Shown: one piece after another, positions 1 through 63,999 of the stretch
Position numbering within the stretch: position 1 is the first letter of the stretch
Layout: each line of letters starts with the position of its first letter
Source of the DNA: Candidatus Lindowbacteria bacterium RIFCSPLOWO2_12_FULL_62_27
GTDB lineage: Bacteria; Lindowbacteria; 2-12-FULL-62-27
Assembly: GCA_001784175.1 (NCBI GenBank)
Contig: MFPR01000002.1
Span: 46,221 to 110,220, forward strand
DNA length: 64,000 bases
Reading direction: 5' to 3'
Notes under the pieces: model-generated
The model's input: the letters and a program-made list of their open reading frames with translations, nothing else
Told to the model about the DNA's origin: nothing
The model's database searches: none
Position numbers and translations under genes: made by a program

Positions 1-1140
1 TCCAAAGCGGTCGAGCGGTTCGGAGACGAACGTATACACGCCGGGCGTGTCCAGCGTGAAGAGCCTGCTCCAGGCCTTGGCGCCGGACGCCTCGTAGAAG
101 GCGAACTGCGCGCCGGCGTCTGGGCCCTTGACGCCGACGCGGATGCGGACGATGTCATTGGGGGACGCGTCGGTGTCGGCGGCGACGCCGTTGATGAGGA
201 TCTGCGCGGCGTTGACCTGGGTACCGGTGGCCGGCGTGTTGATCCTGGAGCTGAGGGTGCTGCGGACGAATTTCTGCTTCTGCAGAGGCGCGATGAGGGT
301 GGTGTCGATGGTGAGGACGTTGTTGACCGAGTCAAAAATCTTGATCCTGACCGTAATGGGCAAAGACTCGGCGGCGGCGTAGTGGAAGGCCCAGTAGTAG
401 GTGTCGTTGGCGGTATTATCGGCGACATCCTCGTCGACGAGCGGGAAGATGAGCGTGCCGACCTTCGTCGCGACCACCTTGCTCGATCCGGGGAACCGGA
501 CCTCGTTGGCGCCGTTGTAGACGTAGGGATTGGTGTCGGCGACGTGCGCGAGCATGACCTTGTCGGCGCCGAGGGTGTATCTCCACGCGTAGAGGCCATC
601 GGGGTCGTCGACCCAGAAATCTCCGGCGACGCCGCCGAAGGCGCCCGGATAGTCATCGTTGATGTGATAGGAATCGGCGGCCTCCTCGTCCAGGAGCCCG
701 TCGCGGTCGTTGTCGACGCCGTCCCCGGCCACCATGGCGGGCATGTCTGACATCCCGTCGGCCGCGATGCTGACGCGGACGGCCGTGACGCGCGTGCGGC
801 GGGTGACGTTGCCGTTGGGGATGGTGGCGTCGGCGACGCCGTGGATGCGGAGGCCGAAGGTGTCCTGCGTGATCTGGACGGTGGATGAGGGCTTGCTGGA
901 GTCGATGGTGAAGACGACCGTATCGTAGGCGGTGTTGCCCATCCCGTCGGTGGCGCGCACGACGAAGGTCCAGACGCCGTCGGCGAGGTTGAGGGTCGAG
1001 AGCGCGAAGGAGAACATGGCCGCGCCGGTATCGGGCGAAGCGAAGAGCTGGAAGGATCCGGCGTCGGGCGCGACGGCATTGCCGGCCTTGACGGCGTACT
1101 CGAGTTTGGCGATGCGCCCGTTGTCGGACGTGACGCCGCG
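1..1140 (-). other. Post-vWA1 Ig-like modules, acidic loop, and start of a further Ig module
   Basis: Opens IIRGVTSDNGRIAKLEYAVK, then DGVWTFVVRATDGMGNTAYD and GLRIHGVADATIPNGNVT. The acidic loop GDGVDNDRDGLLDEEA lies near 680-730 and LIFPLVDEDVADNTANDTYY near 400-450. From about 260 downward a new slot-10-like module begins (RINTPATGTQVNAAQILING, then VAADTDASPND) and the frame leaves the window still open. The protein continues C-terminally. Confidence 0.82.
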
Positions 1141-4100
1141 GATGATGGTGAGCGGGATGCTGGTGTCGGCGGTGACGGTCGAGTAGAGGCCGGCGAACTG
1201 CGTAACGGCGTTTTGTTGTGTCACAAGATTTTTGACCCCCGTGATGGACCCGCCGGTGTTGGCGGTGGCGAGGAGGAGGTTGGGGTTCTTGACGGATCCG
1301 GAGAGGTCGATGGCGTCGACGACGATATTGGACAGCTTGGCTTCGGAGGTGGCCTGCGGCATCGCCTCGGGCTTTTCGTCTTCGGCGCGTCCCAGCGACA
1401 GGAGGAGGATGCGCCGGTTGGTGGCGGTGGCGTTGGTCCGGATGAGGGACACGGCGTTGTTGATGGCCGATGGCAGGAAGGACTGAACGCCGGTGATGGT
1501 GACATTGTCGTTGATGGACCGCTTGAGCAGGTCCTTGTCGGCCGTGAACGTCTGGAGGACCTTGATCTGGGTCGGGTCGCTGAAGGACACGATGGCCGCC
1601 CGGACCTTGGCGGGCATGCCGTCGATGATGCCATTGGCCACGACCTTGGCGGCCTGCAGGAGCGAGATCGTGTCGGAGGACAGGATGCCGAAGACGTTGG
1701 ACATTCCCGTGGTCGCGTCAAAGACGATCACGACGTCGAGCGGGTTCGTCACGATGGCTTCGGGGAAGATGATATTGGAGAGCAGCGCGCCGTCGCCGGG
1801 GAAGGTGATGTCGACGGCGGGCGGCGTGAAGTCGCTGACGCTGGTGATGCGGGCGGACGCGGCCGACAGGCGCGCGCCGAGCGTCTGGGTGGCGTCCTCG
1901 AAGATGATGTCGTTGGGTTCCAGCCTGACCACGAACGCGTCGTCCCGGCCGATGGTGGAAGAGGTGCGGATGAGGACGAAGAAGTCGTTCCCGGCGAGCG
2001 GCCCGAGGTCGGTGTCGGGAATGGCCGAGTCGGCGGCGCCGGCGGCCCGAACCTGGAGGGTGGTGCGGTAAGCGCCGCCGAATCCGGTCCAGGTGATCGG
2101 CGCGGTGACGGGCAGGATGCTGTCGGCCGCGTCGTAGAGGCCGGTTTCGGCGCCGTTGTCCACAGCGATCGCGATGCCGGACTCGGCGTGGAGATCGGAC
2201 GGCGAAAACCCGCCGAGGTCGTCAATCCGCACCGTGACCTGTTTGAGGTAGGGACCTGTCGTGTCGTCCCGGACGTTCAGGCCGAAGACCGAGACGTACC
2301 CGGATGCGCTCGGGACGGCGGTGTCGGACGGAATGACCGACGCCAGTTTCGCCGAGATTTCGAACAGGACCGTGTCCGTATAGACGGCGGCCTGCGGGAA
2401 GACGCCGTTATTGAGCACGATGCCTCCGGCCGGAATGTAGGCGCGGAAGGACTCCTTGTATTTTGCCGACGCGCTGGTGCGAATAGCGACGAAGAAGTCG
2501 GCGCCGGCGTCGCTGATGGTCGTGCCGGTCGGCAGAAGGGCCGGGTTGTTAAGCGAGATGGTGAAGGTTTCAGCCTTGTCCCAGGTCGGCAGTCCGCCGA
2601 GGTCGAGGCGCTGATCGAATGGATCGAGCTGTCCCTGGATGAGGCCGTTGTCCTGATAGATCGAGATGCCGCTCGCGTTCGTGTTCGAGAGCGCCGCCAA
2701 GTCCATGCTGTCGAATCCGCCGCTCTTGTCGAAGGCCACCTTCACGGACTGGAGCCGGCCGCCGCCCGAGGGATCGGAGATGTCGAGCCCGAAGAGCGCG
2801 AGGGAATCGGAAGGCACGGGGACGCTGCCGGAGAGCATGGGCGTCGGGACGACGCTGATGCGCGGTTTGACGGTGACGGTCACGGCCGTGTCCGTGACGT
2901 TGCCGGCCGCGTCCTTGATCCGGAGATTTACGGTGAGGACGGACTTGCCCGATGTGTTCAGGTAATAGGCCCAGCGCGCGTGGCTGTCTGGCAGAGACCC
3001 CCGGGCGATGTCCTCGTCGACCAGAGGATAGAGGACGGCGCCGGTCGGCGTCTGAACGCCCCGGGTGCGGCCCTCGTTCAACACCATGTTTCTGCCTGTG
3101 TACTTGACGAACGGCACGCTTTCCGCGACGTCCATCAGGAAAATCTCGTCGATGCCCGGCTCGAAAATCCCAGCAAGGCCGATCGGGTCGTCCGCCCAGA
3201 AGTCGCCGGCGGCGGCGGGCCCGAAGACGTTGAGCCAGTCGTCGTTCATATTGGGCGAATCGGGCGCCTCGTCGTCCATGATGCCGTCGCTGTCGTTGTC
3301 CTTGCCGTCTCCGGACATGATGGTTTTCTGGAATGTGACGCCGCCGTCGAGGCTGACCTCGACGGACGAAACGCCGGAGACGATGCCGCGCGGCGAGGAG
3401 GTCGCGTCGGCGAGTCCGGCGAGCCGCAGGGATCCGCTGTCGTCGTTGACCTGCAGGGTGGTGGTGGGCTTGGTGGAGTCGAGGGTGAAGAGGACGGTAT
3501 CGGTGGATTCGTTGTTTTTCTCATCGCCCGCCGTGATTGCAAAGACGTAATCGCCGTCGGCAAGCCCGAAGGACGAAACGGGGATCGCGAAATTGGCGGT
3601 GGGACCCAGGTTGATGGGCAGGGAGAAGGGTCCGAAGTAATTCGCCGGGTTGGCCTTTTCGGCGTACCGGTACTGGATGCGGTTGACGGCGACGTTGTCC
3701 GAGGCCGACCCTTCGATCTTGGCGGTTCTCGACACCTCGGTGACCACGGTCGATGAAATTCTCTCCGCGATCGCGGCCAAAGCGTCCGGCAGGTTCAGCA
3801 CGGTTTTCGTCTGGGAGGTGGTGATGGATCCGAGCAGACCGAAACTCGTGGTGGTGGTCACGGTCTTGCTCACGTACAGGTCAAAGGCCGACCCGCCGGT
3901 GGCGTTGGCCAGCGGCAGCAGTTCCTTCTCATTGTCCGGCGTGAGATCCAGTTTCAGGCTGAGTTCGCTGATGACGAAGACCGACACACCGGCGTTGGCG
4001 ATGGTGTCGGCCACGTCAGTGATTTTCAATTTGCTGAGGCCGTCGCCGTCCGACACGTCGTGGGTGGAGGCGTCGGTAACGAGCACGAAGAACCTGCGGC

Positions 4101-7100
4101 TGCCGGACTGGAAGGGCAGCCCGAGGGCGGCGGCGAGGGCCTCGAGGGCGGATTCGGCGGGAATGACGCCGTCCGGCGTGGCCTTGGGATCGCTCTTGGC
4201 CGTCAGGGTCAGGACGTTGTTCTGGAACCGTGAGAGGTTGGAAGTGATCCCGAAATTGACGAGCGACGGCGAGTCGACCTTCTCGTCCTTGAACGTGATC
4301 AGTCCCAGATTGACGGACAGGCCGCTGTTGATGAGCGTCTGATAGAAGGCGGCGACGCTGTCGCGGAAGAGGTCGATGTGCGCCTGCATGCCGGTGGTGA
4401 TGTCGAACACGAACACGACGTCCGCGATGGCCGCCGCGGCCGCCGTCAGGTTGTTCGTCATGATGGTCTTGGCGGTCGGGAACGTGACGGAGATCGCGGG
4501 CGGCAAAAGATCGACGGCCTTGGAGGCGACGATGGTTTTGCTCACGGCCGATTTCTGGCTGGCGCCGGAATCGAAGTGGACCGCGCCCGCGTCCAGGGCG
4601 ACCTTGAACTGGTCGCCGATGCTGAGGCTGTTGGAGGTGCGGACGACCACGAAGAAATCAGCGCCGGCGTAGGTGTCGTCGTCGTCGTGCGGCAGGGCGC
4701 GTCCGGCGGCGGGCAGGACGAGTTTGTATTCGTAGTTGCCGCTGGCGTTGATCTTGACGTTGGTCACGCTGGAGGCCAGAGAGACGAGGAGACTGTCTTT
4801 GGTCCGGTCGAAGACGCCCGTGTCGGTCCCGGCGGCGGTGCTGGTGCTGTCGAGCCAGAGTTCAACGGCGTAGAGGTCCTGGATGGAGAAGTTGGCGACG
4901 GGGATGAGGGTGACGATGATGGAATCGAGCCGCAGCCCTTTGCCGAGGTCGCTGATGTTGAGGCCGAAGATCGCGCGCGTATCGTCGAGGGTCATTGAGT
5001 CGCCGGCGACCGTAGTGTCGATGATCGCGAGTTTGGGCAGGATGCGGATGCCCTTGAGCGCGTCGGTGGTGTCGGCTGCGGTGGCGGGCCCGTCGCTGAA
5101 CTGGACGCCATTGGCCGGGATATTGAGGGTGAATGAATCGCCGGGCGTGGTGTTCGGGGAGGTGCGGATGACGACGAAGAAGTCGGCGCCGGCGTCGATG
5201 CCGGTATCGGACGACGGGACAGCTTGGGGCGTCGAGAGTGCGACCGTGATGGCGTGTCGGCCCTGCGTGGGCGTGTTGGGCATCCAAGCCGGCGCGCCGC
5301 CGACCGTCATGAGCTGGTCGAGCGCGTCGAGGGACCCGTCGACGACGCCGTTGTCCTTGTAGATGGACACGCCGTTTTTGATGAGGACCGGCTGGAGGAT
5401 CGAGTTCATGTTGGTGTCGGCCTCGATCGTGATCGCCTGGAATGTCTTGCTGGACGTGCCGATCATATTGAGCGCCCAGAGCGCGATGCCGGGGCTGGAA
5501 TCGTCGATGCTGGCCGGCGAGAGGTCCGATATCTGGAGTTCGACGGAGAACGCGAACGCGTAGGTGAGCGTGGCGGTGTTTCCGGCGTTGTCCTTGAGGG
5601 CGACGGTCAGCGTGTAGGTATCGTTTTCGGAGATCTGGTCGATCGGGTCGGCCGCGAGATCAATATAGAAGGTATCGGCCGCGCCGAAGTTGTGGACGCT
5701 GCCGTTGGCTTTGACGACGCCGGCAGAGTTCTTGAGGGTGACGGTGCTGAGGACGGTGTCGCCTCCGCTGGCGACCACGCGATTGGCGTCGACCAGGAAA
5801 TAGGAATCGGTGACCTGGACCACCACGCGGTCGATCGATTTGCCGTAGGGCGTGGTCGAGATCTCGCCGTCGACGCCGCCGCTCCGTATCTTGACGGACG
5901 CGACGCGCGGCGCGGTGTCGTCGAAGAGGATGGCCGTCCGGGTGTCCTCCGACTTGTTGCCGCTCAGGTCCTCGAGGTGGAACCACAGGGCCGCGCGGGC
6001 GTTCCGGCCGCCGGCCGCGAACGTGAGGGTCTGGCTGCCGCCGGTGATGGCCTGTCCGGGTGGGCTGAGCCGCTGATCCGCCGCGTCTCCATATATCCCG
6101 TTGTTGTTCATGTCCATCACGACATCGACCCAGGACACGCCCGGGTTGGTGTTGATGCCGGCGAGGGAGTCGGCGGTGTTGACGGTGAAGGTCAGGGCGC
6201 GGGTCGTGCTGCCGGAATCGGGGCTGGCGCTATTGACGAAGGGTCCTTTCGAGTCATACCGGAACTTGCGCGTGTAGGTGGCCTCGTTGCCGTTCTGATC
6301 GACGGCGATGAGATTGAAGACGTAATCCCCGTTCTCGGCGTCCGTATCCACCGGGCTCGCGAACCGGAGGGTGAAAGAGTCGGCGCTGGAGTAACGCGTG
6401 ACGCCGACGTCGGACGCGAGCGTGGAATTCTGGACGCTGGACCGGTCGCGGCTGTTGTTGGCGTCGACCTTGCCGTTGTACGGCGGCGTCGTCCCGAAAA
6501 TGAAGGTGGAGGGCGACGTGTCGGTGAGAAACGTCGTGACGGACGTGACGGTGGTCCCGGTGGCGGACAGGGGCCCGAAGACCTTGATCTCGGAGGCGGT
6601 GGCCCACGTGATCGCGGGGTCGCCGTTGAGGAAGACCGTCTGCGGTTGCGGCGGCGTCACGTCATAGACGAAGGTCCACGAATCGACGCGGGTATTGCCT
6701 GCGCTGTCCGTGAGGGTGACGCGCCCGATGTACTGTCCGTCCTGGGACCCGATACTGGAGAGCGGCGTGAGGAGCGTGAATGTGATATTGCTGCCGCTGA
6801 CGATTTTGGCGTTGAGGAGGCTGCGCTGAACGTCATTGGTATCGATCGCGTTCATGGTATCTCCAACGTCGTAGAAGAGTTCGAGTTTGGTGGCCTGCAT
6901 ATTGGCGCCGAAATCGTCCTGGAGGGCAAGCGAGATGGTGGTGACCTGCGTAGTGATCTTGGCGTTGCGTCCGGGCGTGGGATCGACGAGGGTGGGCGCT
7001 GTGCCATCGAAGAGGAACTGGCGCGAGTCGGACGGAGTTTCGACGTTGCCGGCGTTGTCGGTCGAGAAAACCTGGACCGTATAGATTCCTGAACTGGTGA

Positions 7101-10100
7101 CGACCTGCGTTCTGTCCAGGATATATTTGAAGTTCGACAGGCTGCCGGTAATATTCTGTAGTGTGGAACCCGCGAAGGGCGCACTGCTGCCGCTGGGCCG
7201 CGTAATGCGGATGGTGTTGGCCGCAACCGATCCGCCGCCGTATTCGGTGACCGTCCCGCTGACGGCGATGTCCGTATCGCTGAAAATCTTCATACTGACG
7301 CCATTGAGGATGATGGAATTCTGAGCGGGCACCGCGGCCTCGTTCTGAAACGCGACGTTGTCGATTTTGGTCTGCGGCGGCGTGAAATCCGTGAAAATAT
7401 AGAGGAACTGGTCATTGGGTTTGAAGTCAATGGAAACGGTCGAGTCACCGGCGACAATCATGATGGTATCAATCTGGCTGAACTTGCTTGAAGTGATCTT
7501 GCGGCCCAGGAAGCCTGAGTCGGTGACCGTGAGTGTTTCCTGAGTCGTGCCGCCCAAAATCGAGATCTGGACCGTCCCGCTCAAGTTGTTGCTTGCGATG
7601 ACATAGAGTTCGGTCGCCCGCGGGAGGGTCTTGGGCAGCGTGGTGGAAACCGAATCGGTCTGTGCGATCAAATTGGCGCCGTTGAACTTGAATGTGGCCG
7701 AATCGGGCGCGCTGCGGTTGCCGGCGGTGTCCTCGGCGATGCAGAAGACCTCGTTGGTGCCGGACACGGTGATGGCGATACTGCCGGAATAGGCGCCGAT
7801 GGAGGTGGCCGAAAATCCCGTCGTGGCCTGTGACCCCGCCACCACCGGAAACACGAGGCCGCTGGCCTCGCCAAACCCGGAAATGGAGTGTGCCGTTTGG
7901 ATGGACGCGATGTCGGGCTCGGTGATGGAGGGCGCATCCGGTCCCTTGTTGTCGACGAGGACCTGCCCGGCCGCCGTCTTGATCTCCTTGGTGAGTTCGT
8001 CGACCGCCGTGATCTTCCAGTAATACGTCTGCTCGGCGTTGACCGTCAGGACTGACCCCGTGTCGCTGGTGCCGTTCCAAGAGAAGAACTTGGCAGCCGG
8101 GAAGACCGCCAGGGCGGTCGGCGCTGGGCGGTAGACAGGGATGGAGTCGGTCTGTTTGGCGAAGACCTCAAAGATCACGGTGGCGGTATTGGCCGCGCCG
8201 TCGACCTTGTAGGTGATGAAGGCTTGGTCGTTGCGCCCGTCCTGCCGCTGCGGGGAGATGGTCGGGAAGGACACGGAGACGCCGGTCATGGAGAAGGGCG
8301 TGTTGTCGATGATGACCTCGCCGGCGACCTCGCGGGCCAGGCCGTTGTTGTCGACGGCCGTGATGACGTACCGGTAGGCGCCGTCGGACTGGTTCGATCC
8401 GTCCCACGCGATGATGGCGTTGGATGTGTCGCCGGTGAAGGGCCCGAAGGTCTTGACGGTGGCGCCCGTGTTCTTGGACACCATGTCGACCCGGACTTTG
8501 TCGGCCCCGGCGGTCTTGAAGCTGAAGACCGTCACGTCGTCGTCGCCGGGCGTGGTGCCGGGGCTGAACGGGCTGGGCAGGGCGCTGGCGATGAGCGTGA
8601 TGGCCGGCGGCGTCACGTCCTTGACGGCGGTCGCGCGGCCGGTCGACTGGTTCTTGGACCGGTCGGTCACGCGGATTTCGAAGGTATAGGTTCCTTCGAT
8701 GACGATGTTGCCGTTCTTGTCGAGTCCGTTCCAGTGGATGAGGTTCTGGCCGGCGGTCTGCGCGATGCCGGTGTCATGGGGTTCGGTGTCGAGGAGGTTG
8801 CCGGCGGCGTCGAGGATGATGAGCAGGGCGGTGTCGACGTTTTCCGAGAGGACGTAGCGGACGTCAAGCCCGTCGTTTCCGAAGGGCGCCGGCGCCGCGA
8901 TGATATCGCTGATGACCGGCGCGACGACGTCAGCGACGGCGGTGTCGAAATTGAATGAGACCGAGTCAGTGGTGGGGCCGGTGTTGCCGGCGTTGTCGAC
9001 CGCGTAGGCGTCGATTTTCCAGAGGCCGGGCACGAACCGCGAGTCGCTGAAATTGAGCGTGTAGCTCCAGCTTGACGTCCCGGCCGCCAGGGAATCGTTG
9101 ACCTTGGAGTAGACCGCGCCGTAGGGCGAGGTCGGCGCGAAGACGCGGACGAAGACGCGACCGACGGCGCTGGTGGTGTCGGCCGCGACGCCGGTGACGG
9201 CGATGGGGCTGGCGTTGAACTGCGCGTTGTTGACCGGGTTGACGATGATGGCCGACGGATTGTCGCGGTCGTAGACGAAGGTGACCGTGTCGTACAGGAA
9301 ATTGCCGGCGCGGTCGACGGCCTGGATGATGAGGGTGTAGGTATCGACCTCGGCGGCGTTGTCGATGACGGTGGCGCCGGTGAGTTTCACGCCGATCGTG
9401 TCGGTGCGCGTATCGAAGAGGATGGTGCCGAGACTCTGGCCGGCCGAATTGCGCAGGATCACGAACGTCGATTCGACGGCGTTGGCCGAAAAGCCCGTGA
9501 CGCCGGACGTATCGCCGTTGGGGCTGGTTGTGGTGTCGTCGAGGTCGACGCCGACGAAGACGATGCTGTCGCCGAAGACTTCCTTGCCGAAGAACGTGTC
9601 CTCATACTGGGTCGCGGCGATCCCGTGGGAGATCAAGTAATTTTTTACCGCCGGTTTCTTCGTGTCGTACAGGACGATCGCGGTGTCCTCGCGGAAATTT
9701 CCGGCGTTGTCGTACACGGTGGCGACGAGGGCGTAGTATCCGTCCTGCGTGCCGTCGGTCTTGCGGTTCAGGCCGAAGGTGCTGGTCGTGGGGTTGAGGT
9801 TGAACTGCGCGCCGATGTCGCCGGCGTCGATCCCGTCGCCCTCGTCGTCCCAATACCACCGGAAGGTGGGCAGGAGGGCGCCGGCGGTGGGAATCTGCGC
9901 GGGCGTATCGGACAGCTCGACGGTGACGGCTGCGAGGGAATTGACGAACTTGCCGGTGTCCGGCGTAATCTTGATGTTGGGCGCCGAATCGTCAAAGACG
10001 AACCGGCGGTCGATGGTGGTGTCGTTGCCGTTCTTGTCGCGGGCGAAAATCAGCAGTTCATAAAGGCCGGGCGGCGGGGTCGAATCGGCGGGAACGATGT

Positions 10101-13100
10101 AGAAGGAATCGCTGATCTTGGTGACCGTGAAATTGAGGGACTTGCCGGTCGTGAGGTTCGTGAGGCTGAGGACGGTCGTATTGGTGGTATCGACGCCGCC
10201 GACATATCCGCTGGGGCTCGTGTCGGCGAGGAAGACGGTGATGGTTTCGACGGAGGTATTGAACGCGACGGACGCGTCGAGGGTCTTGGCCGGATCGTTG
10301 TTCCGGAACGTCTGCAGGGCGTAGGGGTCGGTCGTGTCGAGAATGAATATCCGCGTGTCGGACAATGTGTTCCGGGCCTTGTCGCGCACGTCGATCTGGA
10401 TGAGGTACGTGTCATCTTTCGAGCCGTTGGCCGGCAGGGAGATCACGGGCGTGAAGATGAGGTCGGTTGAATCGGAGGTGACCGTGCCGCCGACCACGAG
10501 GTCGTTGTTGTCGATGATCGCGTCGCGGTCGAGGTCCTCAAAGAGCTGAATCCGCGCGCCGCCCTGGACTTCGGTGAAGAGCGAGAAATCGACGCCGGAG
10601 AGGGAGTCGACCGGCCGGATTTTGATCTGCGACAGGCTCGACTTGCTCGCGAAGGTCGAGGGATCGACGACGCCGAGATTGGATTTCGCCACCATGCTGG
10701 GCGATGTCGTCGAGAGCGAGGGTTTGGACTGGTCGAAGATGACGACGAGGTCGTCGTCGTTGCCGAACGTGCCGGAGGCTTCGACGTTGCCGGCGTTGTC
10801 GACCGCGAGTCCCTGGATGCGGAAGGACCCCTCGCCGCCGTTGACGAAGGTGGAGATGGGGATGTTTCGGACGCCCCACGTGTCCTGGCCGTCGCTCAGG
10901 GGATTGCGGGCGGTGTCGGTCGTGATCGTGACCGAGGTCCACGTGCTGTCGGGCCGGAGGATCCGCCACTGGACCTGCTTGAGGTCGGACTTGCCGCCGA
11001 CCTGCGGCACGCGGCCGAAGATGTCGATGGCGACGTCGGTGGCGTTGAAGGGACTGCTGTTGCCGCCGGTGGTTTTGGCCGTCGTGACGTCGGCGTCGGG
11101 CGCGACGGTGTCGACGCGGAAGAAGACGATCTGGTCGTTGGACCGCAGGTCCGCCTTGACCGGCGCGTCGCTGTCGCGGGTGGCCGCGACGATGACGCTG
11201 TCGAATGTCTTGAAGACCTGCGCGCCCGTCACGATCTGGCCGCTCTTGGTGCCGGTGTCGATCGTGAGGGTGTCGACGAGGAGCGCGCCGTTGGCGTCGC
11301 GTCCGAAGACGACCACGAGGGTGGCCGTGTCGACGTCGTCGAAGACGACGAGCACGGCCTGGCTCACGCGCGGGAGGGTCTTGACGTTGGAGTCGATCGA
11401 AACGAACCCGGCGGTGCCGTATCCGCCGACATTGACGAGGCTGAACCCGCCCTTGCCGGACACCAGGCTCTTGTTGCCGACCGTGTCGGTGGAGGTGGCG
11501 GTAAAGGTGTTGTTGCCCTGCGGCACGAGTACGCCGGCGATGGAGTATTCGCCGGTCGCGGCGTTGGCCGTGGCGGTTCCGACGGAGGAATCGACGCCGT
11601 TCAGGAGGACGTGGATGATCCCGCCGGGCGCGGTGAATCCGGAGACGGTGACGGTGAGCGTGGAGAGGGCGTTATTGTCGGTGTTGACGATCTGCGGCGC
11701 GTCGGGCCGCAGGTTGTCGACGTTGAACTGGCCGTCGCCGGTGCGGATTTCCTTTGTTTTCTCGTCGACGGCCGTCAATTTCCAGAAGTATGGATTCTCG
11801 GCGTCCTGCGACACAAATGACCCGGAGGCCTTGCCGTCCCAACTGAAGAATTTGGTAGACGGAAAGACCGTAAGGGTGACGGCGTCGGCCACGATGGGCG
11901 AGGTGTCGGTCCGTTTGGCGAAGACCTCAAAGCGGACGGTTGCCGTTTCGTCCGCGCCATCGATCTTGTAGGACACGATCGCGTTGTCCTTGAGGCCGTC
12001 CTGGTTCTGCGGGGAGAAGGTCGCGTTGGAGACGCTGAGGTCCGACAGCGTGAAGGGCGTATTGTCGATGCGGAGTTCCCCGACGACGCGGGCCGTGAGG
12101 CCGTGCCCGTCGATGGCGGTGATGATGTACTGATAGGTCCCGTCGGCCTGGAAGACGCCGGATGAGTTTTTGCCGTCCCACACGATCTTGCCGGCGGTTG
12201 TGTCGCCGGTGACCGGACCGAAGGTCCGTACGGTGAGTCCGGTGGTCTTGGAGATGATGTCGACGCGGGAACTCTGGGCCAGGAGCGTCGAGTAGACGAA
12301 CTCGGTCTGGTCCTGCTCGCCGGGCGTGGAGTTGGGCGAGAAGGGCGTGGGCGTGGCGGACTGGGCGAGTGTGACCTGCGGCGGCGTCACGTCCTTGATG
12401 CCGGTGGCCTTGCCGGTGGTCACATTGTTGGACAGGTCGTACACGCGGAGCGTGAAGAGGTAGGTGTCCTCGATGACGATGCTGCCGTTTTTATCGAGTC
12501 CATTCCAGTGGATGAGGTTCTGTCCGGCCGTCTGGTTGACGAGGATCGTGTCCTCGCGGATGAAGGCGAAGGCGGAATTGGTCACGGTCAGGACGGCGGT
12601 CTCGACCGATTCGGACAACACATATTTCAGATCCGCGCCCGCGTCTCCGAACGGCGTCGGCTCGACCACGATGTCGGAGACGGTCGGGCCGACCACGTCG
12701 GTCAGGCGGGGGTCATAGACCACGTAGAGGGTGTCGGACATGCTTCCGGTGTTGCCCGCGTTGTCGACCGCGTAGGCCTCGATGTTCCACACGCCGATGG
12801 TGTCGCTGAGCGCTTTGAAGTCGACGGTGCCGAGCCATGAGGCGGCGCCGATGGCGAGGGAGTCGGCGCCGTTGGCGTTGGTGGTGACGTTGACGTGCGC
12901 CGCCGTCGCGATCCCGCCGGTGTCGCGCGGGGCGAAGACGCGGAAGTAGACGCGCGCGACCGTTCCGGTCGTGTCGGTGGAACTGCCGCTAATGGCGATG
13001 GGTCCGGCGCGGAACTGGGTATTGGTGATGGGGCTGATGATGCGTGTGTAGGGTGTGTCGACGTCGAAGACGAAGGACAAGGTGTCCTCGGCGCGGTTGC

Positions 13101-52100: not shown

Positions 52101-55100
52101 CCACGGCGTCGCCGATCTGCGGCGCCGTGACGTCCGTGATGCCGGTGTCGTACCGGATCGTCAGCGTGTCGCTGAGCGCGCCCGTGTTGCCGGCGGCGTC
52201 GACGGCGTAGGCCACGATCTTCCAGTCGCCCAGCGTGTCGCCGAGGAGCGTGAAATTCACGGTGCCGAGCCAGGAGGCGGCGCCCGAAGCCTGGCTGTCC
52301 TGTTTCAGCTTCGTGATCTGGCCGAAGTCGGTGTCCGGAACGTACACGCGCACGAACACCTTCGAGACGCTGCCGACCGTGTCGGTTGCGGATCCGGTGA
52401 CCGAGATCGGGCCGGCGTTGAACTGCGAGTTCTGCGCCGGCGTCGTGATCCGCGCCTGCGGGTTGTCCTTGTCGAACACGAAGGTTGCGGTTTCGGCCAT
52501 GAAGTTTCCGGCGACGTCGACGGCGGTCACGACGATCGTGCAGATTCCGGCCTCGGCCGCCGCGTCCAGGATGTTGCCGCCGGACAGCAGCCTTCCCATC
52601 GAGTCGGCGGCGGCGTTGAAGTCGAACGTGCCCACTTTCTGGTTTGACGCGTTGTAGAAGGTCACCGTGGTCGTCTCGTTGTAGGCCGTGACGTCCGTCA
52701 CCCGGCCGCTCTGGCTCGGCGTTGTGTCGACGAGGTCGACGCCCGCCAGCACCACGCTGTCGCCGTAGGCTCGCGTCGCCACAAAGACCTGCTGGGCGCC
52801 GGACCCGGACGCGGTCACGGGGATCGTCTCGAAAATCGTCGCGGACAGGCCGTGGGCCAGAATGAAATCGACCCGCGTCGGCTTGACGGTGTCATAGCGG
52901 ATGATTCGCGTGTCTTCGAGAATATTGCCCACGCGGTCGACCACCCGCACCCACAGGGCGTAGTCGCCGTCCTGGGTGCCGTCGGTGAGCCGGCCGAGCG
53001 AGAGGGTGCTGACATCGATGGCGCCCGGGGTGCCGCTCGCGTTGAGGTTGAGGGCGGTGGCGGCTTCGGTGAAGGCGCTGTCGCCGTTTTCGTCCCAGAT
53101 CCACCGAAGCTGCGGCACGGTGTCGCCGCTCACGCCGGTCACGGTGTCGCCCACGCGAACCACGATGTTGTCCAGCCGGTTCACCTTGGCGGCGGTGTCG
53201 GGGAAGATGGAGAAGAACGGCAGCTCCGCGTCGTATTTGAACGTCCGCTTTTCGCTCCGCTGGTTGCCCGCCTGGTCGAAGGCCGTCACGAGGACCTCGA
53301 GGTCGCCGCTGACCGGGGTCGAGTCGGTCAGCCAGAAGACCACGAGGGAGTCCCCGGCCGTGCTGATGACCCCGCCGATGCTCTGGCCGGTCGTCTTGTT
53401 CGTGACGCTGATGGAACTGCCGGCGAGGTTGATCCCGCCGTTGAATTTGAAGCCGAGGTCCGTCGCGACCTGGCTCGAGGAATCGGTGAGCTGGACGACG
53501 ATCGAGTCGATCTGCTGGCTCGCGCCGACGATCTGGCCCTCCACGACGGTCGGGCCGCCGCCCCGGTTGTTCAGATAGAAATTACTGCCGATGATGCTCG
53601 GACCCACGCTGTCGATCACAAAGGAGTCGGTCAGCGTGGCCGTGTTGCCCGCGTTGTCGGCCACCACGATGTAGACGCCGTAGACGCCGTCCTTCTTGCC
53701 GTCCCCGGCCACGTCGAAGACCAGGTCCAGCGTGACGGCGTCGCCCGGGGTCGGGGCGTTGTTGCTCCGCACGATCCCGACGTTCGCGCCCACCGGATCG
53801 ACCAGCCGGGCGCCGCTGGTGGTCGTGTTGATGTCGACCCCCGCGTTGTTCTGGCCTGCCACGGGCGCGGCCGGGTCCGTGAACGTCACCTTCACGCGGT
53901 CGACGCTCGTCCGGACGGTCGTATCGAAACTCGTCAGGGTCTTGGAGGCCGTGCCCGTGTCGAACACCACGATCTTGCTCGTGCTCGCAAACGCCGGCGC
54001 CGTCTGGTCCAGCGTGAACGTGAAGGACGCCGAGGTGTCGCGGTTGCCGGCGTCGTCGATCGCGACCGCCGCCACGACATAGTTGCCGTCCCCGCCGGCC
54101 ACCAGGGTCGAGTTGGCGATGCGGGCAATCCACGTGTCGAAGGAACCGCCCGCGTTCGTGTCCGGGTTGTTGATCCCGCCGAAGTCCGCCGACTTGACGG
54201 TCACCGTCGAGTTGTTCGGCAGCGTCACGAGAAGCTCCACGCGGTTCAGGCCGCCGGTCGCGCCCGCCGGGGTGCTCCGGCCCGAAATCAAAATGTCCTC
54301 GGTCGCGTCCTGCGTGCTCTTGCCGTTGAAGGGACTGACCTGCCCGCTCGCCTCCTCCTTCGCGGTCGTGACGCTCGGTTTCGGCGCGACGTTGTCGAGC
54401 CGGTAAAAGACGAATTGATCTTCGGCGCGCACTTCGAGTTGGAGCGTGTTGGCGTCGCTGTCGCCCGGCGCGACGCCGATCGTGTCCAGCCGCGTGAAGT
54501 CCACAGCGCCGGTCACGCGCCGGCCGATGGTCGTGCCCGTGTCGATGACGATCGTGTCCTCAAGGCCCCCGCCGCGAACGATGACCGTCGTCCGCGTGTC
54601 CACGTTCGAGCCTCGCACGATCAGCACGACCTTGCTCGGACGCGGCAGCGCCGTGTCGCCGCCCGCTTCCGTGCCGATCGTCACGCCGGTGGTGTCCACG
54701 CCTTTCAGGCTGACCTGCTTGCCGCTCCGGACGCTCGTGTTGCCGACGGTGTCGGCGGCCGTCGCGTAGAGGACGTTGTCGCCCTGCGAGATCGTCACGG
54801 TCGCGCTCCAGGCGCCGGTCGTGGTGTTCGCGGTGACGGTGCCGACGTCCGCGCCGTTCAGGTTGACGGTCACCAGCGACCCGGCCTCGGCCTGGCCGCT
54901 CACGGTCTGCGCCGAGGCGGACACGGCGAGGTTGTCCGGCGAGAAAATCTGCGGCGGGTCCGGCCGCTGGTTGTCGATGTTGATGTTGCCGGCGGCGGTC
55001 AGGACCTGTCCGTTGCCGCCGTCGATGGCGGTGATCTTCCAGTAATATGTTTTCGTCGTCCTCGGACTGAGAATCCCGCCGGTGTCGATCTTGCCGCGGA

Positions 55101-58100
55101 AAATGAACGTCTTGACGGCCGGGAACACGTTGATGGTCAGGCTGTCGTTGAAAACCGCGGTCGTGTCGGTGGGGTTCGCGAACACCTGGAACCGCACGGT
55201 CGCGCTGTCCTTCGCGCCGTCCGCGGTGAACCGGACGGTCGTGAAGTCGTTCTGGGCGTCGGCGTTTTCGGGGCTGATGGTCGTCGGGCTGATCGATACG
55301 CCGGTCAGCGAGAATGGCGTCACGTCGATCTCCACCTCGCTCGCCACCTGCGCCGCCAGGCCGTGCCCGTCCACCGCCGTTACGACGATGCGGTACAGGC
55401 CGTCCGGCGGCGTCGTCGCGCCGGTTCCGGTCCATGTGACGAGCGAGTCCGTGACGTCACCCGACACGCTGAACACGGTGGCCGCAAGCGCGCCGGTCGT
55501 CTTCGCGTAGACCTCCACCCGGCTCGTCACCGCGCCCACCGTCGTGTACCGGAGGGTTGTGACGTCGTCCTGGCCGGGCGTGACGCCGGGGCTGAACGGA
55601 TTGGGAATGGGCGACTGCGTCAGCGTCACGACCGCCGGCACCACGTCCTTCACGCCCTGCACCGTCACGCTCGTCTTGTTGCCGCTCTTGTCGGTCACGC
55701 GGATTTCAAAGGAATACGTGTCGTCCAGCACGAGATTGCCATCCACGTCTTTTCCGTCCCACACGATCGCGTTCTGGCCCGCGCCCTGCGCCACGCCGTT
55801 GGTGGGCGCCGTGTCAATAAACGTGCCGTCGCTGGACTTGATCACCACGAGCGCGGTGTCGACGGCTTCGTTCAATACATATTTAATGGCGGCGCCGGCC
55901 GCGCCGAACACGCCCGGATCGACGGCGGCGTCGCTGATGATCGGCGCCGTCACGTCCGTGATGCCGGTGTCGTAGCGGATCGTGAGCGTATCGCTCAAAG
56001 CGCCCGTGTTGCCGGCCGCATCCACTGCATACGCGACGATCTTCCAGTCGCCCAGCGTGTCGCCGAGGAGCGAGAAATTGACGGTACCGAGCCATGAGGC
56101 GGCGCCGGACACCTGGCTGTCCTGTTTCAGCTTCGTGATCTGGCCGAAATCGGTGTCCGGAACGTAGACGCGCATGAAGACCTTGGCGACGGTGCCGGTC
56201 GTGTCGGTGGCGACGCCGCTGATGGCCGTGGGGCTGACGTTGAACTGCGTGTTCTGGGGCGGCGCCACGATCCGCGCGATCGGCAGGTCCTTATCGAAGA
56301 CGAAGGTCGCGGTTTCGGCCATGAAATTTCCCGCGGCATCGACGGCCGTGACGACGATCGTGCAAATGCCGATCTCGCTCGCCGCGTCCAGAATCGTCCC
56401 GCCCGTCAGGTACCGGCCCATCGTGTCGGGAATCGCCTGCGACACGAAGGCGCCGACCTTCTGGTTGGCGGAGTTGTAGAAGGTCACGGTCGTGGTGTCG
56501 CCGTAGCCGGTGACGTCGGTCGTGTCGCCGTTCGGGCTCGGCGCCGAGTCGACAAGGTCGACGCCGGCGAAGATCACGCTGTCGTTGTAGGCGCGGGTCG
56601 CGACGTAAATCGTCTGGCCCAAGGCGTCGGTCGTCGCCGTGACCGGGACCGTCTCGGTCACGGTCGCGCTGGCGCCGTGGACGATCAGAAAGTCCTCCCG
56701 GCGCGGCTTGACGGTGTCGTACCGCACAATCTTCGTGTCCTCCGTCACGTTGCCGGCCCGGTCGGTCACGCGGACCCACAGGGCGTAGTCTCCGTCCTGG
56801 GCGCCGGTGACCGCGCGGCCCAGGCTGAGGTTGCTCGTGTCGATCTGGCCGGCGGCGCCGCTCGTGTTCAGAATGAGGGTGGTGACGGCCTCGTCGAAGG
56901 TCCCGTCTCCGTTTTCGTCATAGATCCATATCAATTGCGGCGACGTGTCGGGACTGACGCCCGAAACGGTGTCGCCGATGCGCACGACGAGGTTGTCCAG
57001 GCGGTTCACATTTTTTCCGGTGTCGGGCGAGATCGTGAAGAACGGCGCCTGCGCGTCGTACTTGAAGGTCCGCTTTTCGCTCCGCTGGTTGCCGACCTGG
57101 TCGAAGGCGGTGACGTTGATTTCAAGCTCGCCGCTCACGGGCGTTGAATCGGTGAGCTGGAAGATCAGGAGGGAATCGCCGGCCGTGCTGCTCGTGCCGC
57201 CGATGCTCTGGCCGGTCGTTTTGTTCGTCACGCTGATCGAACTGCCGCTGAGGTTCACGCCGCCGTTGAATCCGAAGCCGAGGTCGCCGGCCACTGAACT
57301 TGACGAGTCCGTGATCTGGAGGGCGATGGTTTCGATGGTTGAATTTGCGCCGAAGATCTGGCCCTCGTCGATCACCGAACCGCCGCCGCGGTTGTTCACG
57401 TAGAAGGCGCTTCCCACGATCCGCGGACCCACGCTGTCGATCAGGAAAGAGTCGGTCACGGCGGCGGTGTTGCCCGCGTTGTCCGCCACGATCACGTACA
57501 CGCCGTAGACGCCGTCTTTGCGGCCGTCGCCGCTCACGTCGAAGATCAGGTCCATCGCGACTTCGTCGCCCGGCGTCGGGCCGTTGTTGCTCCGCACGAC
57601 GCCGACGTTCGCGCCGCGCGGGTCCACCAGCCGGCCGCCGCTGGTGGTGGTGTTGATGTCGATGCCCGCGTTCTTCTGGCCTGCCGTGGGCGCCGCGGCG
57701 TCCGCCAGTTTCACCCGCACCTTGCCGACGCCCGACCGGACGGTCGTGTCAAACGGCGTCAGCGTCTTGGAGGTCGTGCCGCTGTCCGGATCGACCGTGA
57801 TGGCCCCGGTCGCGGCGAGGCCCGGCGCGGTCTGGTCCAGCGTAAAGGTGGAGGCCGTCGAGGAATCCTGGTTGCCGGCATTGTCGATCGCCACCGCGAC
57901 GATCTGATAGTCGCCGTCGCCGCCGGCCAGCAGGGTCGAGTTCGGAATCCGGACCACCCACGTGTCGAAGGAGGCGCCCGCACCCGTGTCCGGATTGTTC
58001 AGGCCGGGGAAATCCACCGACTTGATCGTCGACGTCGCCTTGTTTGGCAGCGTCACCACCAGTTCCACCCGGCTCAGGCCGCCCGTCGTCCCCGCCGGAG

Positions 58101-61100
58101 TGCTGCGGCCGAGTACCAGCACGTCCTCGGTCGCGTCCAGCGTGCTCTTCGCGTTGAAGGGGCTCACCTGGCCCGACAGCTCCTCCCGCACGGCGGTGAT
58201 GGTCGGTTTCGGCGCGACGTTGTCAAGCCGGAAAAATACGAATTGATCCTCGGCGCGGACTTCCAACTCAAGTCCGGCCGCGTCGCTGTCGCCCGATTTC
58301 AGGCCGATCGTGTCCAGCCGGCTGAACTCCACGCTGCCGGTGACCGCACGGCCGATGGGCGTGCCCGTGTCGATCGTGATCGTGTCCTCAAGTCCGCCGC
58401 CGCGCACAATTACCACCGTGCGCGTATCGACGTTCGAGCCCCGCACGATCAGGACGGCCTTGCTCGACCGCGGAAGTATCGTGTCGCCGCCGGCGGCCAC
58501 CGCGATCGCCACGCCGGCCGTGTCGGCGCCTTTCACGCCGACCTGCCCGCCGCTTCGCACGCTCTTGTTGCCGACGGCGTCCGTCGCCGTGGCGTAGACG
58601 ATGTTGTCGCCCTGCACGATGCCCACGGTCGCGCTCCAGGCGCCGGTCGTCGCGTTCGACGTGATGGTCGCCACGTCCGAGCCGTTCACGTTGAGCGTTA
58701 CGAGCGCGCCGGCCTCGGCCGAACCGCTGATGGTCTGGCCGGTGGCGGACGTCGCGAGGTTGTCGGGCGTGAAAATCTGCGGGGGATCGGGGCGCTCGTT
58801 GTCGAGGTTGACGTTGCCGCTGGCGGTCAGAATCTGGCCATTGCCGCCGTCGATCGCCGTGACTTTCCAGTAGTATGTTTTGGTCGCGTTCGGGCTCAAG
58901 ATGCCGCCGGTGTCGATCTTGCCCCGGAAGATGAACGATTTCGACGCCGGAAAGACGTTGACGGTCACGCTGTCATTGAAGACCGCGGTCGTGTCGGTCG
59001 GGTTCGCAAAGACTTGGAATCGTATCGTCGCGCTGTCCTTCGCGCCGTCCGACGTGAACCGGATGGTCGCGAAATCGTCCTGGGCGTCGCCGTTTTCGGG
59101 GCTGATGGTCGCCGGCGTGATCGATACGCCCGTCAACGAGAACGGCGTGATGTCGATCTCCACTTCGCTCGAGGCTTCCGACGTCAGGCCGTGGCCGTCC
59201 ACGGCGGTCACGACGATCCGGTAGAGACCGTCCGGCGGGGTCGGCGCGCCGGAACCGGTCCACGTCACCACCGAGTCGGTCACGTCGCCCGCCACGTTGA
59301 CCAGCGTCGCGATCAGCGCGCCCGTCGTCTTTGCGTAGACCTCCACCCGGCTGCTCACGGCGCTCACGGTCGTGTAGCGGAGGGTCGTCACGTCGTCCTG
59401 GCCCGGGGTGGCGGGCGAGGGACTGAACGGATTCGGAATGGGCGATTGCGTCAGCGTCACCACCGGCGGCACCACGTCCTTGACGCCCTTCACGGTCACG
59501 CTGGTCTTGTTGCCGCTCCGGTCGGTCACCCGGATCTCGAACGAGTAGGTGTCGTCCAGCACCAGATTGCCGTTCACATCTTTTCCGTCCCACACGATCA
59601 CGTTCTGGCCCGCGCCCTGCGTTACGCCGTTGGTGGGCGCCGTGTCGATGAACGCGCCGTCGCTGGCCTTGACCACCACGAGGGCGGTGTCGACGGTTTC
59701 GTTCAATACATATTTAATGGCGGCGCCGCTTGCGCCGAACACGCCGGGATCGACCACGGCGTCGCTGATCTGCGGCGCCGTCACGTCGGTGATGCCGGTG
59801 TCGTACCGGATCGTCAGCGTGTCGCTGAGCGCGCCGGTGTTGCCGGCGGCGTCGATGGCGTACGCGACGATCTTCCAGTCGCCCAGCGTGTCGCCGAGGA
59901 GCGTGAAATTGACGGTGCCGAGCCAGGAGGCCGCGCCGGAGGCCTGGCTGTCCTGCTTCAGTTTCGTGATCTGGCCGAAGTCGGTGTCCGGAACGTAGAC
60001 CCGCACGAAGACTTTGGCCACGCTCCCGGTCGTGTCGCTCGCGATGCCGGTGACGGCGATGGGACCGATGTTGAACTGCGTGTTCTCGGCCGGCGTCACG
60101 ATCCGGGCCTGCGGCAGGTCCTTGTCGAACACAAACGTCGCGGTTTCGCTCATGTAGTTGCCCGCGGCGTCGGCCGCCGTCACCACGATCGTGCAGACGC
60201 CGACCTCCGACGCAAGGTCGAGGATGTTGCCGCCGCTCAGTTGCCGGCCCATCGTGTCGGCGCCGGCCTCAAAGACGAATGAGCCGACTTTCTGGTTGGC
60301 CGCGTTGTAGAAGGTGAGGGTCGTGGTGTCGTTGTAACCGGCGACGTCCGTGACCCGGCCGTTCGGGCTGGCTGCGGTATCGACGAGATCGATGCCGGCG
60401 AACACCACGCTGTCATTGTAAGCCCGCGTCGCCACGTGGACGGTCTGGAGGCCGGAACCGGTCTTCGCCACCGGGATCGTTTCGGTCACGCTCGCGCTCG
60501 CGCCGTGTACCAGCACGAAATCCTGCAGGGTGGGTTTCACCGTGTCATAGCGGAGAATCCGCGTGTCCTCGAGGATGTTGCCGGCCCGGTCGGTCACTCG
60601 CACCCACAGGGCGTAATCGCCGTCCTGCGTGCCGCCGGTCGCGCGGCCCAAGCTGAGCGAGCTCACGTCGATCTGTGCGGCGACGCCGCTCGCGTTGAGG
60701 GACAGGGTCGTCGCCGGCTCGGTGAAGGCGCTGTCGCCGTTTTCGTCCCAGATCCATTTCAGTTCCGGCGGCGTGTCGGAGCTGACACCCGTGACCGTGT
60801 CGCCCACCCGGACCGTAATGCTGTCCAGGCGGTTCATCTTCGCGCCGGTATCCGGGGAGATCGTGAAGAACGGCAGTTGCGCGTCATATTTGAACGTCCG
60901 CTTCTCCGTGCGCTGGTTCCCCGACTGGTCAAAAGCCGTCACCTGCACCTCGAGGTCGCCGCTGACCGGTGTCGAGTCCGTCAGCCAGAAAATCACCAGC
61001 GAGTCGCCGGCGGTGCTTACCACGCCCGACACGCTCTGGCCCGTGGTCCTGTTCGTCGCGCTGATGGAACTGCCGGCGAGGTTGACCCCGCCGTTGAATT

Positions 61101-63999: not shown

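Follow-up and report, generated by a model that had tools for sequence, protein, structure and literature searches.

How large can a single bacterial gene become, and how would a cell export and hold on to the product? Bacteria very rarely have proteins the size of titin, and little is understood of how such proteins are exported. Both questions are raised by a stretch of 64,000 nucleotides (C2:46221-110220, here called the window) on the 110,685-base contig MFPR01000002.1 (C2) of Candidatus Lindowbacteria bacterium RIFCSPLOWO2_12_FULL_62_27. The source assembly (G000, GCA_001784175.1) has 44 contigs and 4.39 Mb and is 94% complete. An original prediction, made from the letters alone, held that a single open reading frame spans the whole window from edge to edge with neither end visible and that it encodes an Ig-like fiber with clustered VWA domains. 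Below, we ask whether this frame is a gene, what its product looks like, where its ends lie, and how the protein might reach the cell surface.

A frame without a stop

The frame is present as predicted: 21,333 codons on the minus strand contain no stop, and the frame continues past both edges of the window. In a six-frame scan of the window, each of the other frames contains between 61 and 1,246 stops. Could such a frame be open by chance? A first-order Markov model of the strand gives 274 expected stops in 21,333 codons, and a calculation from the frame's own codon-position composition gives 268, so a chance open frame is ruled out by 0 stops against about 270 expected. The GC content by codon position is 0.58/0.48/0.89, and the order of the three positions is identical in all 43 blocks of 500 codons. 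Selection can be read from the repeats that the gene contains (described below). Among eight full-length repeat units, with partial and more diverged copies left out, dN/dS lies between 0.18 and 0.44 in 28 of 28 pairs, and third positions hold most of the changes. This substitution pattern and the high GC at third positions fit the giant frame, and a shadow of a gene in another frame is thereby ruled out as well. Because stops are absent where about 270 are expected, because the third-position GC pattern holds, and because dN/dS is 0.18-0.44, the giant frame is a coding gene under purifying selection, not a product of chance.

Repeat units, Ig-like domains, and VWA domains

The coordinates of all features are collected in Table 1. 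The basic building block of the array is a unit of about 1,277 residues that is common to C2 and to a second contig of the same assembly, C40, discussed below. What kinds of domains does the chain contain? In all five scanned pieces of the C2 gene, Big_13 and FlgD_ig match above their cut-offs (27 bits, over the whole piece), and Big_13, FlgD_ig, and other Ig families are matched in all eight Pfam-scanned pieces of the C2 and C40 parts together. This supports the Ig-like fiber of the original prediction. The VWA domains, five in number, do fall into two clusters (window 36481-43845 and 1192-4422), and PF00092 (VWA) matches at 141 and 44 bits, above the Pfam cut-off of 23.8. Two of the five retain DxSxS at the metal site; one carries DITGS, and in two the motif is altered. 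No RTX family (calcium-binding repeats, PF00353) is among the Pfam matches listed at an E value of ≤0.001 in the scanned pieces.

TABLE 1 Features of the giant gene and of its surroundings; positions are those of the window unless a contig is named
Feature	Position	Strand	Remark
Giant ORF, in-window part	1..63999	-	21,333 codons, 0 stops; continues past both edges
Partial repeat unit (~1,277 residues when full), right edge	62005..63999	-	converted from C2:108225-110294
Full repeat unit	58177..61998	-	closest relative is a unit on C40, 89.3% DNA identity
Full repeat unit	54352..58170	-	
Full repeat unit	50518..54342	-	
Full repeat unit	46702..50505	-	
VWA domain 1	43309..43845	-	DLSLS at metal-site position
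VWA domain 2	39037..39570	-	DVSGS
VWA domain 3	36481..36993	-	DITGS
Partial repeat unit	31789..34449	-	
Partial repeat unit	21826..24411	-	
Diverged repeat unit	11074..14823	-	40% identity
Diverged repeat unit	7372..11025	-	38% identity
In-window share of C-terminal 5,026 residues with counterpart on G002 C6	1..12684	-	
VWA domain 4	3859..4422	-	DITTG, altered metal-site motif
VWA domain 5	1192..1737	-	DATTG, altered metal-site motif
Sorting-like C-terminal end	-2393 to -2211		left of window
Stop of giant ORF	-2396 to -2394 (C2:43824-43826)	-	found by contig extension
PorV-like gene	C2:42271-43647; window about -3949 to -2573	-	directly downstream of giant ORF
18-N run	C2:110221-110238		directly right of window
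PLDc, fn3, LTD gene	C40:31314-37760	-	2,148 codons; directly upstream of probable N-terminal half
6,120-codon frame	C40:104686-123045	+	runs off C40 right end
1,918-codon frame	C44:58735-64488	-	TIGR04183 end; enters at C44 right end

A structural model of part of the unit at 58177..61998 shows roughly ten beta-sandwich domains in a row, with a mean pLDDT of 69.7, a level at which only its all-beta nature is used. A fold search with this model returned general beta-sandwich matches, with TM-scores by query length of ≤0.18 among the best 50 matches listed. At the sequence level, a profile of the repeat units weakly matches SiiE in the PDB (E value of 1.4e-4), and a single unit gives no match to PDB sequences. 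Protein-database searches gave no match at an E value of ≤0.001, an odd outcome for an Ig-rich sequence that a word filter may explain and to which no weight is given. Cysteines are few (14 in the C2 part and 14 in the C40 part), and a simple hydropathy scan finds nothing in the C40 part beyond a signal-peptide-like segment and nothing in the C2 part beyond a single marginal window. If every domain, at roughly 110 residues, lengthened the fiber by about 4 nm, the whole would exceed one micrometer. The VWA domains presumably bind ligands, which would make the fiber an adhesin for cell-cell or surface contact.

The C-terminal end and its PorV-like neighbor

Neither end lies within the window, but on the left the C-terminal end is found nearby on the contig. 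Extending the contig on both sides, as the original prediction had advised, located a stop 2.4 kb left of the window, giving a continuous frame of 22,131 codons from the right edge of the window to that stop. The same exercise produced no N-terminal start on C2.

Does the protein end in a sorting signal? A similar terminal domain is shared by eight other ORFs (1,918 to 9,114 codons) in the stretches examined, and a profile of their C termini matches the last 61 residues of the giant to the last model position at 28.4 bits. This profile is not specific for ends, and internal domains score 27.6 bits in the N-terminal part and 31.4 bits in the related genome G002 (described below). The curated type A model, TIGR04183, is matched at an E value of ≤0.01 by 7 of 10 C termini, but the last 200 residues of the giant give no match at that threshold. 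For the type B model, TIGR04131, one of 10 C termini matches at an E value of ≤0.01, and that of the giant does not. Searched alone, the C terminus of the giant weakly matches the end of PorU (E value of 0.0065), and in a PDB search a joint profile of ten C termini matches PorU (2.5e-7) and PG93 (PorZ; 3e-5) at their ends, and also FlgD (3.8e-6). A model of the C-terminal region has a pLDDT of 82.5. Its top Foldseek match is SiiE, and PorU, the C-terminal domain of RgpB, GhpA, and many Ig-like folds are also matched; the VIA-align rows cover mainly residues 5-106 of the model and barely include the terminal domain. A sorting domain had been suggested as something to look for downstream, and what was found answers this in part: the end resembles type IX sorting domains and fails TIGR04183. 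Because TIGR04183 gives no match, the giant is not filed as type A cargo.

What lies beyond the stop? The gene directly downstream is PorV-like, scoring 48 bits against PorV_fam, under the cut-off of 90, with no PorP/SprF families listed for it at an E value of ≤0.001. Both this gene and its copy in G002 show weak TolB-type propeller matches at the C-terminal part, so an additional propeller-like portion may accompany the barrel. The G002 copy also weakly matches Toluene_X/FadL-type barrels.

This neighborhood is not peculiar to the giant. Among nine large ORFs with sorting-type ends, drawn from stretches picked by Big_13 matches, six have a PorV-family match directly downstream (five at 116-196 bits and that of the giant at 48), and three do not. 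A PorV neighbor accompanies two of the five genes with a TIGR04183 match and all four without one, the giant included, though these are small numbers. Outside this count stand other TIGR04183-ended ORFs, for example those of 7,200, 5,498, 5,224, and 5,038 codons. An ORF of 2,187 codons on C23 has neither a sorting-type end nor a PorV neighbor.

What about the rest of a type IX system? TIGR04183 is matched 28 times in G000 and 10 and 11 times, respectively, in two related genomes, G001 and G002. A SprA-like ORF of 1,825 aa scores 69 bits against TIGR04189 (cut-off of 200); it is present in G001 too and was not found in G002. Matches to PorU (NF033707) involve the C-terminal part of the model alone, none of them above the cut-off. 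GldM was not found in the three genomes, nor was peptidase C25 in G000; no control genome matched either.

It could be asked whether the giant is a secreted or surface protein that is not type IX cargo at all. Its end would then be an ordinary FlgD-type Ig domain, of which there are matches inside the protein too, and the PorV-like gene would be a neighbor with another task, such as that of a FadL-type transporter. Such an account accommodates the missing TIGR04183 match, the weak PorV-like score, the FadL-type leaning of the G002 copy, and the motor genes that were not found, but it leaves unexplained why a PorV-family gene follows six of nine large genes, five of them with neighbors above the PorV_fam cut-off, why this gene order is retained in G002, and why it is the extreme ends of PorU and PG93 that the joint profile matches. 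We regard it as doubtful, if the most serious of the competing explanations, and favor type IX-like export.

The probable N-terminal half

Where, then, does the gene begin? Directly right of the window lies the run of 18 N's. The 148 codons between this run and the contig end are again Ig-like, but they are out of frame with the window if the N's are counted literally, so the N count is unreliable for the frame. Reading straight through the run would give 22,286 codons, and this was rejected: the first 148 residues are then not Ig-like, and those of another frame are. Automated gene prediction would thus fail to treat the sequences flanking the run as belonging together.

A candidate for the missing part is found on C40, a contig of 123,045 bases, where a frame of 10,454 codons on the minus strand runs off the left end. 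Its first ATG overlaps the stop of the upstream gene (ATGA), with a GTG 26 codons further on, and its start shows, by eye and by hydropathy, a hydrophobic stretch followed by an AxA-like site, as in a signal peptide. Several observations connect this frame to C2. (i) When both protein parts were compared with 88 contig ends of 2 kb each, C40-left and C2-right alone gave strong matches to the array. (ii) C2-right is 86% identical to residues 8505-9014 of the C40 frame. (iii) Of the eight full units, the two most alike in DNA (89.3% identity) lie one on C2 and the other on C40. (iv) Five yardsticks within the array put the stretch missing between C40 and C2 at 517-519 residues plus a whole number of units. 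We infer from these matches that the C2 gene has its missing N-terminal part in this 10,454-codon frame, in which case the C2 frame is likely the C-terminal two thirds of the fiber. With the missing stretch put at 517-519 residues plus whole units, the joined protein would likely have about 33,200 residues or more: about 33,210 with no further unit and about 34,490, 35,760, or 37,040 with one to three more. The C2 and C40 parts together amount to 3.4 MDa. As for the signal peptide that was to be sought upstream, C2 does not reach the N terminus; a signal-peptide-like start exists on C40, and its assignment to this gene goes with the join.

Other contig ends were considered. The right-hand exit of C40 was rejected as a partner of C2, since its 6,120-codon frame matches C44-right (54% over 616 columns), and neither C40-right nor C44-right matches either protein part at an E value of ≤1e-3. 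C15-right, C13-right, and C38-left (E values of 2e-6 to 1e-3, 24-34% identity) were set aside as general Ig similarity. A separate end-versus-end comparison of frames used a cut of 150 codons, so C2-right, with 148, was left out of it.

Conservation of the locus among relatives

How widespread is this gene? The closest comparison is among three genomes of the phylum (G000, G001, and G002), which represent three genera of one family. In G002 (NC_groundwater_1274_Ag_S-0.2um_61_68; one of its contigs is JACQOF010000039.1), contig C42 carries a match to the N-terminal part (residues 76-3318, 59% identity) that runs off the contig. A frame on its contig C6, entering from the contig edge, matches the C2 part at 57% over residues 17107-20861 and at 39% over residues 20884-22132. 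In between, the G002 frame has a stretch with VWA-type units (at about residues 2701-3450) that matches other array units better, and there the two are not strictly colinear. Between G000 and G002, the upstream gene is 66% and the downstream PorV-like gene 75% identical; in G001, a PorV-like gene at a contig edge is 77% identical over its second half. Because G002 keeps both end regions and the flanking genes, the locus is conserved across genera. The upstream neighbor, with PLDc, fn3, and LTD domains, may belong to the same system.

Among the 60 genomes searched, G000 included, the N-terminal part is matched in 3 and the C-terminal part in 12 at an E value of ≤1e-3. Only G002 matches both parts strongly; the rest are weak Ig-type matches, with the exception of G020. 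In that genome, which belongs to another phylum, G020:C36:1596-2543 is 28% identical to a portion of the N-terminal module (E value of 2.4e-12).

Are C40 and C2 perhaps two related giant genes, of 10,454 codons and of 22,131 plus 148 codons, whose missing ends were simply not sequenced? The assembly does not join them, a 94%-complete bin could miss a whole contig, the ends lie on different contigs in G002 as well, and the genome has several related giant genes. Against this, only one N-terminal and one C-terminal module of this kind were found at high score in each of G000 and G002, the C40 frame lacks exactly the end that the C2 frame has and vice versa, both lie in one array whose closest unit pair crosses the break, and no other contig end matches strongly. 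Contigs break inside the array in both of these assemblies. We therefore consider two genes unlikely and retain a single split gene. An assembly artefact, that is, a frame made by misjoined or expanded repeats, is highly improbable. The assembly is metagenome-style with an N run adjoining the window, the copies compared share stretches of up to 110 identical bases, and many contig ends lie in repeats. Nevertheless, the 63,999 bases hold no N and no stop, although a misjoin has a two-in-three chance of breaking the frame. In addition, the independent genome G002 has a largely colinear counterpart of the C-terminal 5,026 residues, and purifying selection acts in all 28 unit pairs.

Comparison with known giant proteins

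The closest functional parallel is SprB of Flavobacterium johnsoniae, described as an adhesin of 669 kDa that is repetitive and carries a sorting domain at its C terminus (PMC9143113). Its cognate barrel, SprF, is encoded directly downstream and is reported to be needed for its secretion and anchoring (PMC12618676, PMC9143113). The locus studied here resembles that pair, as these sources describe it, in having a very large repetitive protein with a barrel gene directly downstream. It differs in size, the two parts coming to about 3.4 MDa against the 669 kDa given for SprB (PMC9143113), in an end that is not type B, and in a barrel that is PorV-like rather than PorP/SprF-like. By the features tested, the giant is not a member of the SprB-SprF family.

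Among proteins of similar length, Cag_0614 of Chlorobium chlorochromatii is given as 36,805 aa, exceeding human titin at 34,350 (PMC4053972), a small correction to the 36,806 aa quoted for it in the original prediction. It is proposed there to stabilize cell contacts and is, like the giant, a repetitive surface-type protein. That account likens it to hemagglutinin and to RTX-type adhesins with calcium-binding repeats, whereas no RTX family is among the Pfam matches listed here. An ORF of 39,678 aa in V. archaeovorus (Omnitrophota) is reported with 42 predicted transmembrane helices, and most giant ORFs of the Velamenicoccia are described as having few annotated domains (PMC10066038). The giant shares their size class and the single long ORF, and differs from the V. 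archaeovorus ORF, as described there, in having no membrane helices by a simple hydropathy scan and Ig families in every scanned piece. With ORFs of up to 85,800 aa on record (PMC12057145, citing West-Roberts et al.), it is not the longest known; it is set apart by recognizable domains in each scanned piece, by the absence of membrane helices in the simple scan, and by a probable export partner.

What about other Ig-like fibers? GhpA, the grappling hook protein of Aureispira, is reported to be secreted by a type IX system and used in predation (PMC11205867). A GhpA fragment ranks 22nd in the Foldseek search with the C-terminal model, a general Ig-like fold match, and GhpA is not listed in the PDB sequence searches with the repeat unit, the repeat-unit profile, or the joint C-terminal profile. 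SiiE-type adhesins, which are type I secreted, likewise consist of strings of Ig-like domains; the giant is unlike them in having no RTX family among the listed Pfam matches, a different C-terminal end, and a PorV-like neighbor. A literature search on giant Ig-like type IX proteins found no description of such a protein. In a survey of bacterial huge proteins, as its categories are given, these are mainly secondary-metabolite synthases and surface proteins (PMC11573180), and the giant falls in the surface-protein group.

G000 has several related giant genes. Further ORFs have 8,313, 9,114, 7,200, 5,498, and 5,224 codons (C6:121122-146060 and C6:153699-181040; C19, C28, C34, and others), and all except the 8,313-codon one match TIGR04183 at an E value of ≤0.001. 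Open frames at contig ends also resemble one another: C15-right and C13-right at 87% (622 columns), C14-left and C22-right at 77%, and C6-right and C34-left at 67%. Because many contig ends carry such mutually similar frames, the assembly has probably divided further giant repeat genes between contigs. The frames at C40-right and C44-right, judged by their sequence match, probably form one further giant gene of at least 8,000 codons.

A proposed route to the cell surface

How might such a protein be exported? The reading that we favor, to which we assign a probability of roughly 0.6, is that this is one gene of at least 22,131 codons, likely part of a fiber of at least about 33,200 residues, which is exported by a type IX-like route and held at the surface by the PorV-like outer-membrane barrel encoded downstream. 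The signal peptide would send the chain across the inner membrane to the periplasm, where the terminal beta-sandwich would act as a sorting signal recognized at the SprA-like translocon. The PorV-like barrel would then collect and anchor the chain, by analogy with what SprF does for SprB. The outcome would be a long Ig fiber on the cell surface with VWA domains in two places.

A broader, tentative speculation is that this barely sampled phylum builds its surface from giant Ig fibers, many with their own collecting and anchoring PorV-family barrel. PorV would here have turned cargo-specific, like PorP/SprF in Flavobacterium. The largest fiber, at 33,000 to more than 37,000 residues and over one micrometer, would be larger than any known type IX cargo, at about five times the size of SprB. 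We put this forward as a possibility, with less confidence than the reading for the single gene.

What does the locus offer? Its C-terminal end is in view, a probable N-terminal half has been located, its neighbors are conserved, and it has a plausible export partner. How a chain of more than 2.3 MDa is secreted and anchored thus becomes testable, since a single barrel gene and the last 200 residues could be moved into a laboratory type IX host. Overall, the findings suggest that giant fibers can have PorV-family barrels dedicated to them and that a little-known phylum devotes much of its coding space to such fibers.
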